A DNA stretch of 64,000 nucleotides from Rhizopus arrhizus (lineage: Eukaryota > Mucoromycota > Mucoromycetes > Mucorales > Rhizopodaceae). The notes under the pieces were generated by a model. The model ran no database searches. It worked only from the letters and a program-made list of their open reading frames with translations, and was not told where the DNA came from. Location: contig JAKZZE010000001.1 of assembly GCA_024220505.1 (NCBI GenBank), forward strand, positions 310,001 to 374,000. The letters run 5' to 3'. Positions within the stretch are counted from its first letter, which is position 1. Each line of letters begins with the position of its first letter. The position numbers and the translations under genes are program-made. Of this stretch, positions 13,884 to 44,300 are shown piece after piece.

Positions 13884-15101
13884 TTCATTTAATTTACCAA
13901 AAAGTACTTTTGTTTTTTTAGCTCTTACATTTCTTTAAAAACACATAATATTATCATTAAACTTTGATGTAAAAAGCACACGTGCATTTTCGCAAATCAA
14001 GATGTATCCTGGATGAAATGGTTGCTTAGGTTATGTTTCTTCAATCATTTTTTTTTAATGTGTGAAATAAGCATGATCCATTATATTTTATGATTAAATA
14101 ATTAATTTTTTATATTAATTTATAGAAAATTGACTGCGAATAGAATGGATGTACTGATACAAGACAAGACCGCTTTTGAATTTAAACTCATTAATATTAC
14201 TCTTTAATCTGAGGGTTCAAATAAACCTTTCATCTGTGACGAAGAAAGCGCAATGTTATGGACATTTGATGTACTTTCTTCAAAAGAATAACACAAAAAT
14301 CCGTGCGCATTTTCAAAGGCGGCGACTTAAAACCAATTGCATAATCACTGAATATGATTTTCTTTTGTAAACTTCAAAAGGAGATTTTAAAGTATTACAA
14401 ATAAGGTTATTTTAAAAGTATCTATGCCAACAGAAATCAATATCATTGCCTAGGATTAAGCAATCTTATGAATCATCTTTCATCACTTGTTCATGGTATT
14501 AAAAATGATCCCTGGACAAAAACACTCAATAGTCGATAGAGGCAGCTCAATTCTTAATAGTAGTTACGATTGGAGAATAAAGCTAGCGCTCGTCAACTTT
14601 ATGTATTCGATCACTTTGCTTGATTGCTTCAAGTCAGACCCAAACGCCATCAAAACTCAATAGATTTTATGTGGCGCTCATCATCTAACTACAACAACTG
14701 TATTTGCTTATAGCTAATAATTACTGGAAATTAGCAGACTACAATATTTCGACAGAAGAAAAACGAAAACTAACATCATTGGTGCTTTATAAGATACAAT
14801 GTCTTTTTGTGGAAAAATAGGAACGGTATAGTTATCCCTATTGAATTTGTCAAGAATACTCATAGTAACGTTGTTTAAATAGTAACATCAAAGTGCAATA
14901 ATTGGTGAAATCTCACAATAATTTAGCAATAATCAGAGCATATCTGTTATTGGCAACACAGGACTCAGTAAACATCTTGCCTGGAGGTTTGTCTAAATCA
15001 AGCAAATGGTAAAGTACTGGTAATGATCAGATAACATTTTGTATCGTATGAAACATAAATTGTGTTTAAAAAGTTTATAGTTCTTTCTTATTCCCTACTT
15101 A
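13884..15101. other. intergenic region left of the Fanzor element
   Basis: AT-rich, without a recognisable gene. The bases next to the element (about 15080-15101) are where the guide of the element's RNA would come from if it behaves like TnpB/Fanzor systems (see findings). Confidence 0.5.
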
Positions 15102-15178
15102 CAGTGCAAGAAACTAGGTTGGGCCAATGAAAAAAAATTTGGTCAATTTAAAATTGAATTAGGACACGGTTGCCAAAA
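15102..15178 (+). repeat. terminal inverted repeat, left
   Basis: It pairs with 18428-18504. The two arms differ at a few transitions and by about two A residues in the central A run. The outermost bases are CAGTGC next to a TA dinucleotide. Confidence 0.9.
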
Positions 15179-15259
15179 AAAAAACTTGTCCAACTTACAC
15201 TGTACAGAAGTATGAGAGAGTCATATCAATCACACGGAAAGCTGGCCACTGGGATCTAA
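15102..15259 (-). ncRNA. candidate guide (omega/f) RNA region of the Fanzor element
   Basis: The 158 bases between the Fanzor stop and the element end, on the Fanzor strand, are where TnpB and Fanzor systems encode their scaffold RNA, with the guide read from the flank just past the end. The stretch includes the inverted repeat with a self-complementary TCAATTTTAAATTGA core. I infer this from position only; no transcript or fold has been tested. Confidence 0.4.
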
Positions 15260-17931
15260 CTAACGCACAAAGGCATCAAGACGCTGATTTTTGTTTTTTG
15301 CAGCAAATAAAAATATATCCAGTATGTTATGAGCAGCCATGATATCACGATTCCATATGATATTGCAATTATTTTGCTTACACTGCAATACCGTATGTAC
15401 TCTTCGTTTTGATTTGGCTGTTACAACATTGTCTACATTTCTAGTCTTGCATTTGCTGCAGATTTGGCTTGTTAAATATTCATCCACCATGCAAATATCA
15501 AGCTGCTTTACACAATATTTTTTTAAAGCCTTCTTAATCATCCGTACAGGAGCAGATTTATTTCCACGGAGGCTGGAACCAAACATACCATCACCAAAAG
15601 CAATGATGGTTTTCTTGGTTCTTTTTTCGTGATCAGTGGGAGCAGAAGGATAGTATCTATTCTCTTTCTTGGTAGATGTTCTTACGCCTGTAGTTGCTTT
15701 TTCATCGTACTTGGCACTACCGTGAATGAAGCGCTTACAGATCTCATGAACACCTTTTTGTTTTCTCATGTAGCATTTGAACTTCAGCTTTGACGACCTA
15801 CACAGATTTTTGCATGTTGCTCAAGTAAACAAGTAAAAAAAAATATGTTTTTATTTACCAAGATTTTTCATTGTAGTAACTTGTAATGTCGTCATATAAA
15901 TTTAGTCTTTCTTTGCAAGCTTTTAAAAATTCTGCCATATTGGATGTCTTCAACGAGCTTAAATTAGAAATTTTCAAAAACTGAGCCTTGTGTTGTTCTT
16001 GATGCTTTTTTCGTATAGAATTCGCATCATTATAGCCACACAGATGATAGTACTCGTCCAAGCTTGTAGTCCTTTGCCTTCCGGATGTATCGACGGCAGT
16101 TACAAGTGTGGCAACACCAGGATCTACTCCCCAAATTTCACAGCCATTTTCAATATCTTCGAGGAAGTCCTCAGGCTGTTTTCCCAGTGGAGTATCTATT
16201 TGTTTTTTCTTCCTCACTCTAGAAAAAAAGGAAAGAAATCGAATACCCATCGGTATATATAACGTTTCTATGTATAACTTGATTAAATTAAGGCTCTTAT
16301 TTTTCAATTCAACTAAGCTAACTTACTGGAACTGTTTTTTCCCCTCTGAAAGGCTTTTTCGAGTTCGAAATCCCATTTTGGAAAAGTTAAAAAGCCTATA
16401 GTAGAAGTCCGAGAGAGCCGATTTATCTTTAACACCTTTTGGGATATTTTCAATACCAGATTGCTTCAACAGTCGCCAGAAAGCTTGGGCATCTATTTGT
16501 ATTGACTTCATCGCAAATGAGTATACAGGTAAGATGGAAAAAAAGCGATAGCCTCGCCGATCCGTGTATTTAGCAGGCGTGAATGTTCCATCTTCAATTC
16601 TAGACTGGATACTTGTAATAAATTTCAAAAGAGCAGGTAAATGGGGCTCAAGCTTCTCTAATTTTTTCCCAAGCACTAGTGGTATTTTTGAATTAATGTT
16701 TTGCAGTACTTGTTCCTGTAAAGACTTGAAGCTTCGTCTATTGAGTGTTGAAGTAAACGTGAGTTCTTTTAACTTCCTATAAATGTAGGACTTGGAGGCA
16801 AAGGTGGCTGGTTTTTCTTCCATAATATACACCTTCTCATTTATCTTTTGCTGAAGATAGAAAAGCCATTTGAAGAATTCATGAGGTTTGGAGTACAGGT
16901 CTTCCGTATCGCAGTTCATTGTCTGATATCGACTCCATAATGCATTCATTTTCTCTATGGTTTCTTCTAAACATTGATTTCTTTCTAAAGATGAGGGCCA
17001 TGTTGATTGCTGTTTCTGCTTTAATGTATAAACATAGTGAGAGAGTGCTTTTCTTTGGGCAACTGATAATCCTTTGCAATAGAAGGGAGAAGACATATCT
17101 GAAAAAGTTTCCAGAAAAAAGCGGGTTGTTCTCCTTTCATGGTTTTCACATACATGGTTGCGTATGAGTACATCGTATTGTTTACACATAATAGACAGAA
17201 TAGACGAATATCCAATACTCTTGAGGGATTGCAGTATTGTTTCATTGACTTGGCATTCGTTGCAAAATTCAACAAAGTAATCTTGACAGTATTTAGGGAC
17301 CTTTTTGCCATTGCCAGTTACAACAGTGAAAATATAATAGACAAGGGTATGATCAATAATTGGCACTTGTTCCCCCTTGTTTAAAAGCTTCAAAAAAATA
17401 TAGTTCATGAATAGTGAGCCTACGTGGATCGCTTTGGTTGTGTAGGCCACTACTGAAGCAATCTTTTCAGAAACCCTTGTGTCCGTACATATATTTTTTA
17501 AGGAGGATTTGATTGCAAAAGTTTCCTTTTTCTCATCAGGATTGTGAGATGGCTCCTTTTGCTTCTTTTTTGGGCAAAGGTTGGATGATGATCTTGAGTG
17601 AGTATTCAACCCGCAAGAAGGACATGTCTTTTCTGTATTGCTTTTTGTTTTCATTCTAAAGTCCTGCAAAGCAAGTTGTTTATCTATTTTCTTCTGTATC
17701 TTTTTGGAGGTAGGAGGAAGAGCACTAGGAGCCTGTGAAGTAGAAGCCTGTGAAGCAGAAGCAACTGAAGTGGTCAGAGCAGATGTAACTGATATATTAT
17801 CAGAATTGACTTCTTGAAAAAAAAGTAAGGAACATGATACCTCGCAATGTGTTATTTTGGTACTTACTCTTTAAAATCTTTCTTTTTGTTGACGAGCTCT
17901 TCGCGGGATCATCTTTATATCTTCGCTTCAT
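15260..17931 (-). CDS. Fanzor RNA-guided nuclease (TnpB-like)
   Basis: Minus-strand exons are 17931-17868, 17812-16327, 16218-15859 and 15797-15260, giving 815 codons in frame. The N-terminus is basic (MKRRYKDD...STKRKILK), a possible nuclear signal, followed by a Ser/Thr-rich linker and a zinc-knuckle-like CPSCGLNTHSRSSSNLCP. A long helical region follows. RuvC-I is IWGVDPGVATLVTAVD (catalytic Asp in VDPG). After IIAFGDGMFGSS comes VDEYLTSQICSKC, with a Glu just before the zinc-ribbon CxxC. The second cysteine pair is QCKQNNC, then RuvC-III NRDIMAAHNI (Asp). This order matches TnpB/Fanzor proteins, which use an RNA transcribed from the element end to cut DNA. An alternative acceptor at 16267 would add NVIYTDGYSISFLF but needs a one-base shift in a T7 run. 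All three catalytic acidic residues are present, so it may be active. Confidence 0.87.
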
Positions 17932-18221
17932 TATCTATTATAAATTTCAGAAAGAAAATAAATGTTTACAGATTTATTCAAGTTCTGTTGCTTTCTATTG
18001 AAATCCTTAATGACCAATGAAAATTTATTGATTAATTGCTTTGGAGCATCTCAAAACTATAGCTTGTGGCGATCCAGCGTAATTACTAGTCATATGCTTT
18101 TCTTGACTATTTAATTAATAGACTGGCAGATAATGTAATTGGCTATACGGCTTATGTAATGTTATAAGATAATAAGCCTTTTGCATAAAATTCATTCTAC
18201 CTCATATTTTGTAATATACAC

Positions 18222-18256
18222 AGTGGGGGCTAAGTAAATCTGTCCATTTTGAAGAT
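18222..18256 (+). repeat. possible second Tc1/mariner-like end inside the Fanzor element
   Basis: After TATACA comes CAGTGGGGGCTAAGTAAATC and TGTCC, which resembles ends of other Tc1/pogo-type elements. I find no matching inverted partner in the window, so it may be a relic end or a solo terminal fragment. Confidence 0.3.
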
Positions 18257-18427
18257 GAATATTCATAACTTAAGCAATGGTTTCAGAAATTACTGCTTTG
18301 TCCGATTTCCATTTTCGCTTTTTCCAAAAAAGGTGAGTTAAGCATTTTAAAATCAATTGTTATTTGTCCAAAAAAAAAACTAACATTCTGTCTCTCCTTT
18401 GTCCCATTTTCGCATTGGTGTCCCATT

Positions 18428-18504
18428 TTGGCAACCGTGTCCCAATTCAATTTTAAATTGACCAAATTTTTTTTTTCATTGGCCTAACCTAGTTTCCTGC
18501 ACTG
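18428..18504 (-). repeat. terminal inverted repeat, right
   Basis: Reverse complement of 15102-15178 with few mismatches. It ends ...GCACTG followed by TA at 18505-18506. Confidence 0.9.
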
Positions 18505-18582
18505 TAATTTTCTTACTGCTTTATAGGAACAGTCACTGTTACACGATCACACAAGGATATCCATACAAGGCAATCCAGTCCA

Positions 18583-38304: not shown

Positions 38305-41300
38305 TTACGAAGACAAAGGTTTCTTTTTAGGCTCCCTAACATTTGTTAGCACTGCGTTTGCTGATTGCGGAGCAAACTTTTTGATAGCTGCAATTAACTC
38401 GGGGAATCTCAAGGGTTTAGTCACATATTCATCCTATTGTGAATATAGAGTATATGAGTGTCATTGATCAAACATACTGTATTTATCATCATTTACCATT
38501 CCTGACTGTAAACATTTTTCACGATCACCAATCATTGCATGGGCAGTAAGGGCAATGATAGGAACACGAGTATGACAGCCTGATATATTCTCTATCTCTC
38601 GGATCTTTTGCGTTGCCTCAAATCCGCCCATGATAGGCATCTGAACGTCCATCAAGATCATGTCGTAATTTCTATTTTCAAATGCTTCAACAGCCATCTT
38701 ACCATTGGACACAATCTCTACTTTATGTCCAAACTTCTCCAAGATACGTACAGCCAGCTTTTGATTAACAATGTTGTCTTCTGCTAATAGGATGTCAAGA
38801 GGCATAGGTATGGAAGAATCATTAGGTGCAGCTGCGTGGCTTTCAAGAGCAGGAAGTAAGGTATATGCAAGATCAGATACAGTAATTGTTGAATTGATAT
38901 ATCCTGTAATACCCAAGTCAATACACAGTTTCATGTTAAGACGAAGGACCTCGGGTGCAATCAAAATTATGGGAGTGTATCTCAAACGAAGGGCTTCTCG
39001 AAGCTTTTCAGCACAATCTATGTCATCAACAATGACAGTATCGAAAATAAGTGGCTGGCCATTTTTTCCGACAAGTTTATCTGCTTCTAATATATCTGTG
39101 ATTCGATAAGGTAAAAGCCCAAGTTGTTGAAGTTTAGGAGCGACATCAATCCTATCGCCTTGACTATCAAGAAATAAAATATTTCTTCCTTTAAATTTCT
39201 TCATTTTTTCGAGTGCACCCTTTACTTCCATTGTATAGCGCTTAAAATTGAGAGTAAAGTAAAATTGCGATCCCTTTCCATAAGTTGACTTGACCCATAA
39301 ATCACCTCCCATTAGCTTGACAAGACTTTTAGAGATACTCAATCCGAGGCCTGTTCCTCCATATTCTCGACTGATGAAGAGAAGAAAGGTGTAAATAGAA
39401 TTGTATAATACAAACGATATTAAATGAGCTTACGTGGTGCTACCATCAGCTTGACAAAATGTTTCAAAAATTAAGTTTAGCTTTTCTTCCTGAATACCAA
39501 TTCCAGTGTCCTTGACACACACCTCCAAAACCACATTGTCGCCTTTGAATTCAACAATATGTACCTCTAATGATACTTCTCCTTTGGTAGTAAACTTGAT
39601 TGCATTACCAATCAAGTTAGTAATCACTTGTCTTAACCGAAGAGGATCGCCGACGAGCTGATCAGGGATAGCGCAATCAACATTATAGATTAAATCAAGC
39701 TTCTTTTGATTTGCCTTTACAGCAAGTGTCTTGAGCACACTAAAGATGGCAGAACGAAGTGAGAAGGGAATTGTCTCAAAGGTCATACGGCCAGCCTCAA
39801 TTTTAGAAATATCCAAGATATCATCAATAATACTAAGTAAGCTGTTGGCAAGACTAGATACTATCATCAGGTTTTCTCTCTGCTGACGATTAAGCTCTGT
39901 TTCCAAAGTTAATGAAGTCATACCAATAATACCATTCATAGGCGTCCTAATCTCGTGGCTCATATTTGCTAAAAACTCACTCTTTGAACGGTTTGCCAGT
40001 TCTGCAGCCTCTCTTGCTGACCTGTTCTTTTGAATAGCATCTCTTAAGGAATTAACCATTTGATTGATTTTAGTTTTAAGTGAATCCATTTCACCAGAGG
40101 CTTCAACTGTGATTAATCTTGAGAAATCGTTTTCGGTAGCAGCAGCGGAAATTTGAGCAAATGCACGGACTTGCGTAGTTAAATTGGAAGCCATCGTATT
40201 CACATTACTTGTAATATCACGCCAAAGACCTTGAATGTCTTCTACTTGGGCTTGTACACCAAGTTTTCCTTCTGTACCAACCTCCATACATACACGTGTT
40301 ACTTCAGATGCAAATGAGCTAAGTTGATCCACCATCGTATTAATCGTCGTCTTCAACTCAGCTATTTCCCCATGTACTTCAACCTCAATCTTTTTCGATA
40401 AGTCTCCCTGGGCTACGGCTTTACAGACCGCGGCAATGGATCTCAGTTGATCAGTTAAATTACTTGCCATCAAGTTCACATTGTCCGTCAAGTCCTTCCA
40501 GGTACCATCAACGCCAATGATCGTAGCCTGACCACCTAGCTTGCCCTCAGTACCTACCTCACGAGCCACACGGGTGACCTCAGACGCAAAAACACGAAGC
40601 TGATCGACCATACTATTAACAGTAATCTTGAGCTCAAGGATTTCACCACGAGTTTCTACATCAATCTTTTTGGAAAGGTCACCTCTTGCCACAGCCTTTG
40701 TCACCTCAGCAATTGAACGTACTTGAGTCGTCAGATTTGCAGCCATGATGTTTACGTTTTCTGTAAGCTCGTTCCATGTACCAGCTACATCTTTAACAAC
40801 CGCTTGACCGCCCAGTCGACCCTCAGTACCCACTTCTTTAGCCATACGAGTCACTTCAGATGCAAACACACGAAGCTGGTCCACCATGGCATTTACAACA
40901 TTTTTGAGCTCCAAGATTTCACCGTCAGATTCAACCTCGATCTTTTTGGACAAGTCGCCTAAGGCAACAGCTTTGGTTACTTCAGCTATCGAACGCACTT
41001 GACTGGTCAAGTTTGCAGCCATTTGATTTACGTTATCAGTTAGACCCTTCCATGTACCGTCCACGTTTGGTACAAGAGCTTGACCACCCAGTTTTCCTTC
41101 AGTACCCACCTCTTTGGCCACACGAGTCACTTCTGAGGCAAATACATTTAGCTGACCCACCATGCTATTTACGATATTTTTGAGCTCGAGGATTTCTCCC
41201 CCGGATTCTACCTCGATCTTTTTGGACAAGTCACCTAAAGCCACGGCCTTTGTGACTTCAGCAATAGATCGGACCTGACTAGTTAAGTTGGCAGCCATCT

Positions 41301-44300
41301 GGTTCACATTGACCGTCAAATCCTTCCATGTGCCAGCAACATCTTTAACAACGGCCTGGCCGCCCAATCGACCCTCGGTTCCTACTTCACGAGCCACACG
41401 GGTGACCTCAGATGCAAACACACGAAGCTGATCGACCATAGCATTCACAACATTCTTGAGCTCTAGGATCTCACCGTCAGACTCTACCTCGATCTTTTTA
41501 GAAAGATCACCTAAAGCAACAGCCTTTGTGACCTCAGCAATGGACCGCACCTGGCTAGTTAAATTAGCAGCCATCTGGTTCACGTTGTCCGTCAGCCCTT
41601 TCCAGGTGCCATCCACATTAGGAACTAAGGCTTGACCGCCCAGCTTGCCTTCTGTACCCACTTCTTTGGCCACACGGGTCACTTCAGACGCAAACACCCG
41701 AAGCTGATCCACCATGTTATTCACCGTGTCCTTCAATTCACGAATCTCACCTCCTGATTCGACATCAATCTTCTTGGACAAATCCCCCAAGGCCACAGCC
41801 TTGGTCACTTCAGCAATTGAACGCACTTGAGTTGTCAAGTTGGCAGCCATCATGTTGACATTGTCTGTGAGATCTTTCCATGTGCCTGCCACGTTAGGCA
41901 CATCAGCTTGTCCACCCAGTTTTCCTTCTGTACCCACTTCCTTGGAAACACGAGTCACTTCAGATGCAAACACGCGCAGCTGGTCCACCATGTTATTCAC
42001 AACATTCTTGAGCTCTAGGATCTCACCATCAGACTCTACCTCGATCTTTTTAGACAAGTCACCAAGGGCAACAGCTTTGGTCACTTCAGCAATCGAACGC
42101 ACTTGGTCAGTGAGATTAGCAGCCATCTGGTTCACGTTATCCGTCAGACCTTTCCAGGTGCCCCCAATGTTGGGCACTAGGGCTTGACCGCCCAGCTTGC
42201 CTTCTGTGCCTACTTCTTTGGCCACACGGGTCACTTCAGACGCAAACACGTTCAACTGATCCACCATGCTGTTCACTGTGTTCTTCAAGTCCAAGATTTC
42301 ACCACTGGTCTCGACGTGAATCTTTTTAGACAGGTCACCTGTTGCTACCGCCTTGGTGACTTCCGCAATCGATCTGACCTGAGTGGTTAGGTTTGCGGCC
42401 ATGGTGTTCACATTGTCCGTCAGTCCTTTCCAGGTGCCGCTCACATTGGGCACAAAGGCTTCACCGCCCAGCTTGCCTTCGGTGCCCACCTCACGAGCGA
42501 CACGAGTCACCTCAGATGCAAACACACGAAGTTGATCGACCATGCTATTTACGATATTTTTGAGCTCGAGGATTTCACCCCCGGATTCTACTTCGATCTT
42601 TTTGGACAAGTCACCTAAAGCCACAGCTTGGGTGACGACCTTGATAGAACGCACCTGGGTTGTGAGATTAGATGCCATCGTGTTCACATTATCCGTCAGG
42701 TCCTTCCATGTACCGTCCACGTTGGGTACTCTTGCCTGCCCACCCAGCTTGCCTTCTGTGCCCACTTCTTTGGCCACACGGGTGACTTCAGCAGCAAAAA
42801 CACGGAGTTGGCTGACCATGTCATTCACCGTGTTCTTCAAGTCCAAGATTTCGCCACGGGTCTCGACATCGATCTTTTTGGAAAGGTCACCGAGAGCCAC
42901 GGCCTTGGTGACTTCGGCAATCGAACGGACTTGCGTTGTCAAATTAGCAGCCATGATATTCACATTGTCCGTCAGATCCTTCCAGGCACCACCCACGTCT
43001 TTCACCACAGCCTGACCACCCAGTTTTCCTTCTACACCCACCTCCAAGGAAACTCTCCTTACTTCAGCCGAAAAGTTTGTCAGTTGATCTACCTAGAAAT
43101 AGAAAAAAAAGGGAGGGGATAGGCCGATGGGTTTGATGTTTTCTATTTTCAATTTACCATTTGATTCATTGTGTTTTTTAATTCCAAGATTTCTCCTTGA
43201 GCGTTTGCTGTTACTTTTCTAGACAAATCTCCTTCTGCCACCGCTTTAGCCACGGCAGCAATATCGCGTACTTGACTGGTAATCTTTAGGGCCATCATGT
43301 TCACATTGTCCGTCAAATCCTTCCATGTGCCACCCACGTCTTTCACCACAGCCTGACCGCCCAGCTTTCCTTCGGTACCGACTTCTAATGATACCCTTGT
43401 CACTTCAGTGGCAAAGATAGAAAGCTGATGATGCTATGAGTACAAGAAGAGAGAGCAAGGCTAGCGAGTGTTTACCTGATCTACCATCGTGTTGATCGTA
43501 TTCTTCAAATCGAGCATTTCACCTTTGACTTCCACCTTTACTTTCTTTGTCAGGTCACCGCGAACGACGGCCTTTGAGACATGAGCAATATCACGTACTT
43601 GATTTGTCAAGTTGTCTGCCATTGTATTCACATTGTCCGTCAGTTCTTTCCAGATACCACTGACACCAGCCACCTTGGCTTGAGCACCCAGCTTTCCTTC
43701 AGTACCCACCTCATGAGCCACACGAGTGACTTCAGAAGCAAAAAGATTTAAATGGTTTACTGCAGAAAATAAGCTTAGTTCAGAAGCAGACGGATGATGT
43801 TTTGTTTATTTTACCCATCGTGTTGAATGTGTTTTTCAACATCAGCGTCTCACCGCGTACGGGGACAGTCATGGCCTTGCTGAGATCACCTCTGGCAATC
43901 GCCGTCGAGACATCAGTGATATCTCGTACTTGTTCTAAATGATTTCTTGTCATGCTATTCAGATTTAAAATAAAATCGCGCCAGACGCCCTTGATGGACT
44001 CACAGCATTCTGCTTGAACGCCCAGTTTGCCTTCGATCGCTGTCTCATGAGCGACCTTGGAGACATTGGTTGTGACCAGCTGAAGTTGATCGGCCATGGT
44101 GTTGATAGCATATTTTAATGAATTGATATGTGAATCCTTGATGATGCCGCTGTTTGAATCCGAGTGATGGTCACATGTGATGCGTCGGTTCAATTCACCA
44201 CTGTTGATGGCCAAAGCAACATCGACCGCTTGACTAACACAATCATGGCAGATGAGCAAACACGCTGATTTTGATTCTTTATGAATAGGTGTTAATAAAG

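Follow-up and report, generated by a model that had tools for sequence, protein, structure and literature searches.

The stretch of Rhizopus arrhizus DNA analysed here (the window, 64,000 nucleotides, G000:C1:310001-374000) carries at positions 15102-18504 a transposable element that encodes a Fanzor nuclease. The element is bounded by terminal inverted repeats (TIRs) of about 77 bp, at 15102-15178 on the gene-3' side and 18426-18504 on the gene-5' side, which were detected as two abutting arms of 49 nt (98% complementary) and 39 nt (95%). A TA target-site duplication adjoins it at 15100-15101 (gene-3' side) and 18505-18506 (gene-5' side); neither repeats nor TA are assigned a strand. Repeat detection and the sequence itself confirm the inverted repeats with TA on each side described in the initial annotation, as well as the compact make-up of an element without a DDE transposase. 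No second coding frame longer than 116 amino acids occurs inside it besides the Fanzor exons (short frames were not profile-searched), and no Rfam family was matched in the window. It can be classed as a TIR transposon that inserts at TA, is non-autonomous and has a Fanzor1 nuclease as its only long gene.

Four minus-strand exons (17931-17868, 17812-16327, 16218-15859 and 15797-15260, stop codon included) make up the gene and encode 815 residues. Splice-site combinations were filtered for products of more than 780 amino acids with the last motif present; eight passed, giving 805-816 amino acids, and the 815-residue form uses the splice pairs GTAAGT/CAAG, GTAAGT/CTAG and GTAAAT/GTAG. In this gene model exon 1 holds the start codon and a basic KRR...KRK stretch, exon 2 an N-terminal CxxC motif and the REC/WED region (its span taken from the fold comparison of a relative), exon 3 the RuvC-I aspartate D549 in VDPGV, and exon 4 E743 in VDEYLTS, the cysteines C750, C753, C776 and C781, and D788 in NRD. 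All the motifs first noted (VDPGV, VDEYLTS then CxxC, NRDIMAAHNI) are thus present in a four-exon gene, and the catalytic acidic residues of the window copy are complete. Comparison of the copies described below shows length differences of up to 165 bp in one stretch of exon 2 (17726-17771, minus strand), mostly in multiples of 15 bp that keep the frame.

The product is a Fanzor1, as judged by sequence profile, motif positions and the fold of a relative, and the Fanzor identity proposed at the outset stands. The pattern D-X(125,275)-[TS][TS]-X-X-C4 zinc finger-X(5,50)-RD, given as a Fanzor1 signature (PMC3627910), is matched by D549, T-S at 746-747, C750/C753/C776/C781 and the RD ending in D788. 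Fanzor1 proteins also have DPG at RuvC-I and a catalytic glutamate six residues before the zinc finger (PMC10711439), in agreement with DPG at 549 and with E743 followed by YLTSQI and C750; the distance from D to E is 194, above the 120-160 of that study's search pattern for TnpBs. In the fold comparison a relative was nearer to the solved Fanzor1 than to Fanzor2 or TnpB, and the carrier is a multi-copy eukaryotic transposon with TIRs and a TA duplication, not IS607. SpuFz1 was the best PDB match by sequence profile, a weak one (E 8.5e-5). Databases yielded 13 relatives, 11 of them named, from Thamnidium, Rhizopus microsporus, Cokeromyces, Phycomyces and Rhizomucor; the Fanzor matched no NCBIfam family, and no relative occurred in the viral contigs searched. 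Nine loci outside the copy set carry a Fanzor/TnpB zinc-ribbon domain (C38:1261610, C3:185043, C1:1563395, C38:1779032, C15:443510, C11:654382, C13:433190, C17:144381 and C9:412995), all scoring above the window Fanzor, and further Fanzor families therefore seem to be present in the genome.

Genome-wide searches covered the 50.3-Mb assembly in 41 contigs. The other copies envisaged in the initial annotation were found: more than 20 places of the same genome match most of the element at 94-98% identity, which sets it far beyond chance. The copy set comprises 28 places (the window and L009-L035), of which 23 were aligned; L029, which lacks both ends, and the strongly truncated L032-L035 were left out. 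Pairwise identity among the aligned copies is 96.6-98.3% (mean 97.4%) and their tree is star-like. Linkage over 65 variable sites drops with distance, from a mean r2 of 0.126 below 50 bp to 0.047 beyond 1 kb (equally strong in 2 of 2000 permutations), and all four gametes occur in 36-56% of site pairs. The gene-3' side takes two forms that are intermingled over the tree: the 77-bp repeat of the window and other copies, or about 44 bp together with the outermost 213 bp of the opposite end copied in inverted orientation. The simplest reading of these patterns is gene conversion among the dispersed copies.

The element's 3' end is flanked by TA in 27 of 27 copies and its 5' end in 18 of 19. The gene-3' end is normally CAGTTA (26 of 27 readable ends) and the intact gene-5' end mostly CAGTGC (seven of the nine undamaged ends). 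The CAGTGC ends first reported are thus true of the window copy, whose gene-3' repeat has the 5'-type end as the sole exception, and not of the family. Two mini-elements, L036:1270-1454 (about 186 bp) and L040:1455-1523 (about 69 bp), carry both family ends with AATTA or AATTG on the expected side; they are possibly ghost elements or internal deletions. Reading frames that resemble DIRS elements by eye (reverse transcriptase, tyrosine-recombinase-like stretch) lie inside or beside repeats of the element or its relatives at L025:898-5146, L038, L065 and L066.

The coding frame is intact in 14 of the 23 aligned copies, two of them with a changed splice base, and broken in nine; D549, E743 and D788 are conserved in all 23. 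If the majority base is treated as the ancestral state, replacement and silent changes number 391 and 327, replacements being about half of the mutation-spectrum expectation, and five nonsense changes are observed against about 58 expected, a depletion of roughly tenfold. Changes confined to a single copy comprise 198 replacements and 134 silent substitutions. These figures are rough because the copies recombine. The broken frames, together with the loss of one or both ends in nine of the 28 copies, could be taken to indicate a dead relic family whose old copies decay together; this explanation is very improbable, given that 14 frames are unbroken at about 2.6% pairwise divergence and that selection against nonsense is apparent even among single-copy changes (three observed, about 24 expected).

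The flanks of the copies, read in the direction of the gene, provide a second line of evidence. A rule-based search recognised the 5' end of 19 copies; for L012 the 3' flank had to be placed by hand, the rule having picked the wrong place, and L031, added after the fact to an earlier hand-chosen set, is absent from the rule-based one. The bases directly before the 5' end are AATTA in 14 of the 19, GATTA in three, CACTA in L017 and AATTG in L012. Since AAT precedes TA at only about 3% of sites in the window and the fetched flanks, 14 occurrences greatly exceed chance (P 5e-18). On the 3' side the mirror motif, TA followed by ATT, was found in none of 27 copies (Fisher P 5e-8). In the window copy AATTA immediately precedes the element on the minus strand (18505-18509), where it is a candidate target-adjacent motif (TAM).

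At L022 and L027 the target duplication of an insert resembling a long interspersed nuclear element (LINE) has preserved the original site, in which AATTA runs directly into 8 and 11 bases of the 3' flank, respectively; AATTA is consequently part of the target site rather than of the element. The LINE-like repeat, identified by eye from its poly-T end, target duplication and reading frame and not by library search, lies on the 5' side of L011, L022 and L027 with three different truncation points, and L011 has a short filler between two ATTA. A LINE-like origin of the L011 and L027 5' flanks would turn two of the three GATTA into original AATTA; the raw counts are kept here. A Fanzor TAM is expected on this same side of the element: in SpuFz1 a conserved CA directly precedes the 5' repeat and the proven TAM is CATA (PMC10432273), which we read as the conserved CA plus TA. 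Because this system has the same one-sided geometry, (A/G)ATTA is predicted to be the TAM of the window Fanzor.

A transposase that sees two equivalent repeats would be expected to insert either way round with respect to AATTA. The ends do differ in most copies, as tallied above, and a transposase distinguishing CAGTGC from CAGTTA might orient insertion to AATTA, the Fanzor then being perhaps active yet not the cause of the flank. Copies with one end type at both ends (CAGTTA in L016 and L030, CAGTGC in the window) nevertheless keep AATTA on the 5' side only, and SpuFz1 couples the same geometry to a proven TAM, so that orientation by end type appears quite improbable.

The 5' junctions also bear sequence from the opposite flank. 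Beside a damaged element end, six of the 19 copies repeat the first 3-11 nt of their 3' flank. The junction of L018 reads AATTA ATAATCAACA TAGGTTGG and its 3' flank TA ATAATCAACA AACT; the matching bases number 11 in L027, six in L010, five in L015, four in L017 and three in L020. When each junction was compared with its own 3' flank and with swapped flanks, own-flank matching in the rule-based set was as high in 0 of 100,000 permutations, and in 53 of 100,000 without L018 and L027; in the earlier set, chosen by hand, the corresponding values were 0 and 9 of 100,000. Damage is one-sided: the first six bases are altered in ten of 19 5' ends and the last eight in none of 27 3' ends (P 2e-5), and the 5' end alone is missing in eight of the 28 copies, the 3' end alone in none. 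Such asymmetry is in keeping with one-sided copying from the 3' side, the 8-to-0 contrast in truncations being weak evidence by itself.

The Fanzor might instead be a passenger of a TA-specific transposase that prefers AATTA on one side, the scars being products of ordinary abortive gap repair after excision. The TA duplication and CAGT ends would suit such an enzyme, gap repair after excision does occur in TA-inserting elements, and the genome contains at least 199 DDE_3 transposase matches (their ends were not compared with those of the element), so that Tc1/mariner-type elements abound in it. Excision by TA-specific transposases cuts at TA, however, which alone would not place 3-11 nt of the far flank at the opposite junction; equivalent repeats predict both orientations, of which the mirror one is absent; and a passenger gene sits poorly with the depletion of nonsense changes. 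This alternative is considered unlikely.

A partner transposase was sought through the element's ends. A 21-base end with up to three mismatches gave 56 matches genome-wide, near which no DDE transposase was seen by eye (one match was not fetched and eight were read over 0.8-2.8 kb only); a second end-pattern search gave 26 matches outside the known copies, and in the two that were read no transposase with the element's repeats was seen. Mobilisation in trans may take place, as initially proposed, but was not demonstrated by the stretches read around end matches, and the Tc1/mariner-like label has the TA duplication and CAGT ends as its sole basis, the element encoding no DDE/D transposase. 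Two facing matches at C27:520667/524303 were rejected as a partner, since they share only end bases and are arms of another inverted repeat running outward past the match; no frame above 84 amino acids was found in the first 2 kb (the middle was not read). That inverted repeat (L070/L071, C27:520600-524400) has arms about 3.6 kb apart and about 13 bases in common with the element end.

The selection and flank evidence, read from genome sequence, favour a function of the Fanzor in its element, which is probably that of an RNA-guided retention or homing device. In this model an RNA composed of the element end and the adjacent host flank would guide the Fanzor to the matching empty site, either on a chromatid after loss of the copy or on an empty allele. 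With AATTA required beside the target, the nuclease would cut the guide-matching flank a few bases from its start, and repair of the break would copy the element from the chromosome that still carries it. Copying would begin on the gene-3' side, where the end is still homologous; an early stop and joining to the cut left side would leave a few target bases between AATTA and a damaged 5' end. The predicted product reads 5' flank, AATTA, first target bases, damaged 5' end, element, intact 3' end, TA and full 3' flank. The chances seem about even that the copies constitute a natural genomic record of Fanzor function, with oriented TAMs and abortive copy-in scars (TAM, 3-11 nt of target, damaged 5' end).

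The RNA of this model may correspond to sequences at the gene-3' side, all on the minus strand. A non-coding block after the stop codon (15178-15259) is a candidate omega-RNA scaffold of modest conservation, with 12 changes in 1723 positions over 23 copies versus 71/5107 in introns (P 0.02) and 195/10852 upstream (P 0.0003). If SpuFz1 (PMC10432273) is taken as the model, the candidate omega-RNA region would comprise this block and the gene-3' repeat (15102-15259), its 3' end coinciding with the element end. The first 20 nt of flank after TA (15080-15099) would form the guide, a position taken by analogy from the same report and PMC10711439. In the fold of one copy, L014, UAGUUAGA at the stop codon may pair with UUUAACUG, which lies at the end of the element; the window copy is without that end, and the pairing was not relied on.

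Several observations weigh against the retention or homing model. The longest match among 702 swapped pairs is 8, and only L018 and L027 surpass every swapped control; scars of 3-6 nt are individually weak, as they overlap element-end bases and could partly be point changes. In L009, L019 and L021 the 5' end is altered and at most one flank base matches. L027 is complicated by the LINE-like insert with its own duplication, although such an insert cannot supply bases from a flank 3.6 kb away. CACTA in L017 and AATTG in L012 deviate from (A/G)ATTA, and the zinc cysteine C776 is changed in one of 23 copies. AATTA stands at the junction of one of the eight 5'-truncated copies (L031, with two matching bases, found afterwards), and the truncations were rejected as homing products, the upstream piece being a common repeat in L033 and partly so in L035 (40 of 396 candidates scored). 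Among the other truncated copies, L024 has a short self-repeat in its upstream piece, and L023 and L025 adjoin DIRS-like frames named by eye; L023 is also, by eye, next to other repeats. No empty paralogous site was found, as judged by uninterrupted matches to the 19 joined flanks (40 of 208 candidates scored). With five truncated copies added, the block after the stop has 24 changes in 2094 positions (P 0.49 versus introns, 0.03 versus upstream), and the candidate omega-RNA folds no better than shuffled sequences (z-scores 0.18 and -0.17). The flank and scar tests cover this single Fanzor family, and the evidence is genome sequence, from which we infer the RNA, its cleavage of the target and the way the break is repaired.

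Elsewhere in the window, a minus-strand frame of 1205 amino acids at 39430-43047 contains numerous repeated blocks and, after them, a stretch that by eye resembles a histidine kinase. A kinase gene neighbours the element; Hesseltinella, Umbelopsis, Spinellus and Absidia are among its nearest named matches, which are not the top-scoring ones.

The biological role of Fanzors is described as unknown (PMC10432273) or left to future studies (PMC11423790). If the present model is true, Fanzors would be RNA-guided homing devices that keep a transposon in place, which would answer what they are for. Among the titles and abstract openings listed, no study was found that reads a Fanzor TAM, along with scars of abortive homing, from the junctions of many copies in one natural genome. 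The family offers a concrete TAM prediction, (A/G)ATTA, and a multi-copy natural experiment, and the footprint test is applicable to any Fanzor family with several copies. Should the scars hold elsewhere, RNA-guided homing by a eukaryotic transposon would be testable directly from genome sequence.

Among fungi with a described Fanzor is Parasitella parasitica, which belongs to the Mucorales. Its PpFz1, a Fanzor with an FRI insertion (PMC11423790), gave no sequence match with the window Fanzor at E values up to 10. Fanzor1 in fungal transposons, including those of Mucor, Rhizopus and Phycomyces, is already known (PMC3627910); these elements resemble the window family in fungal group and, in some, in having Fanzor1 as sole gene. 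Three elements of these fungi have been placed in a superfamily; they are MuDR-like and make 9-bp duplications, unlike the TA element of the window, and mariner-type TA elements with Fanzor1 are described in other hosts (PMC3627910). SpuFz1 and its element Spu-1 from Spizellomyces punctatus (PMC10432273) are alike in that a single Fanzor1 gene lies between inverted repeats in many copies, with no transposase found between the repeats and conserved bases upstream of the 5' repeat. The window element differs in its four exons, its 815 amino acids and AATTA in place of CATA, and two mini-elements were seen for its family versus 134 ghost loci for Spu-1 (PMC10432273). The window family is thus a new Fanzor1 element of known type, or possibly among those already catalogued.

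Homing endonuclease genes cut an empty allele and are copied in by repair. Their target is read by protein, whereas that of the window Fanzor is expected to be read by an RNA and to be different at every locus. The TnpB of IS200/605, with its retention and gene drive (PMC11870625), resembles the system proposed here in a flank-derived guide, the cutting of element-free sites and biased recopying; it is bacterial and experimentally shown, whereas the window family provides footprints only.
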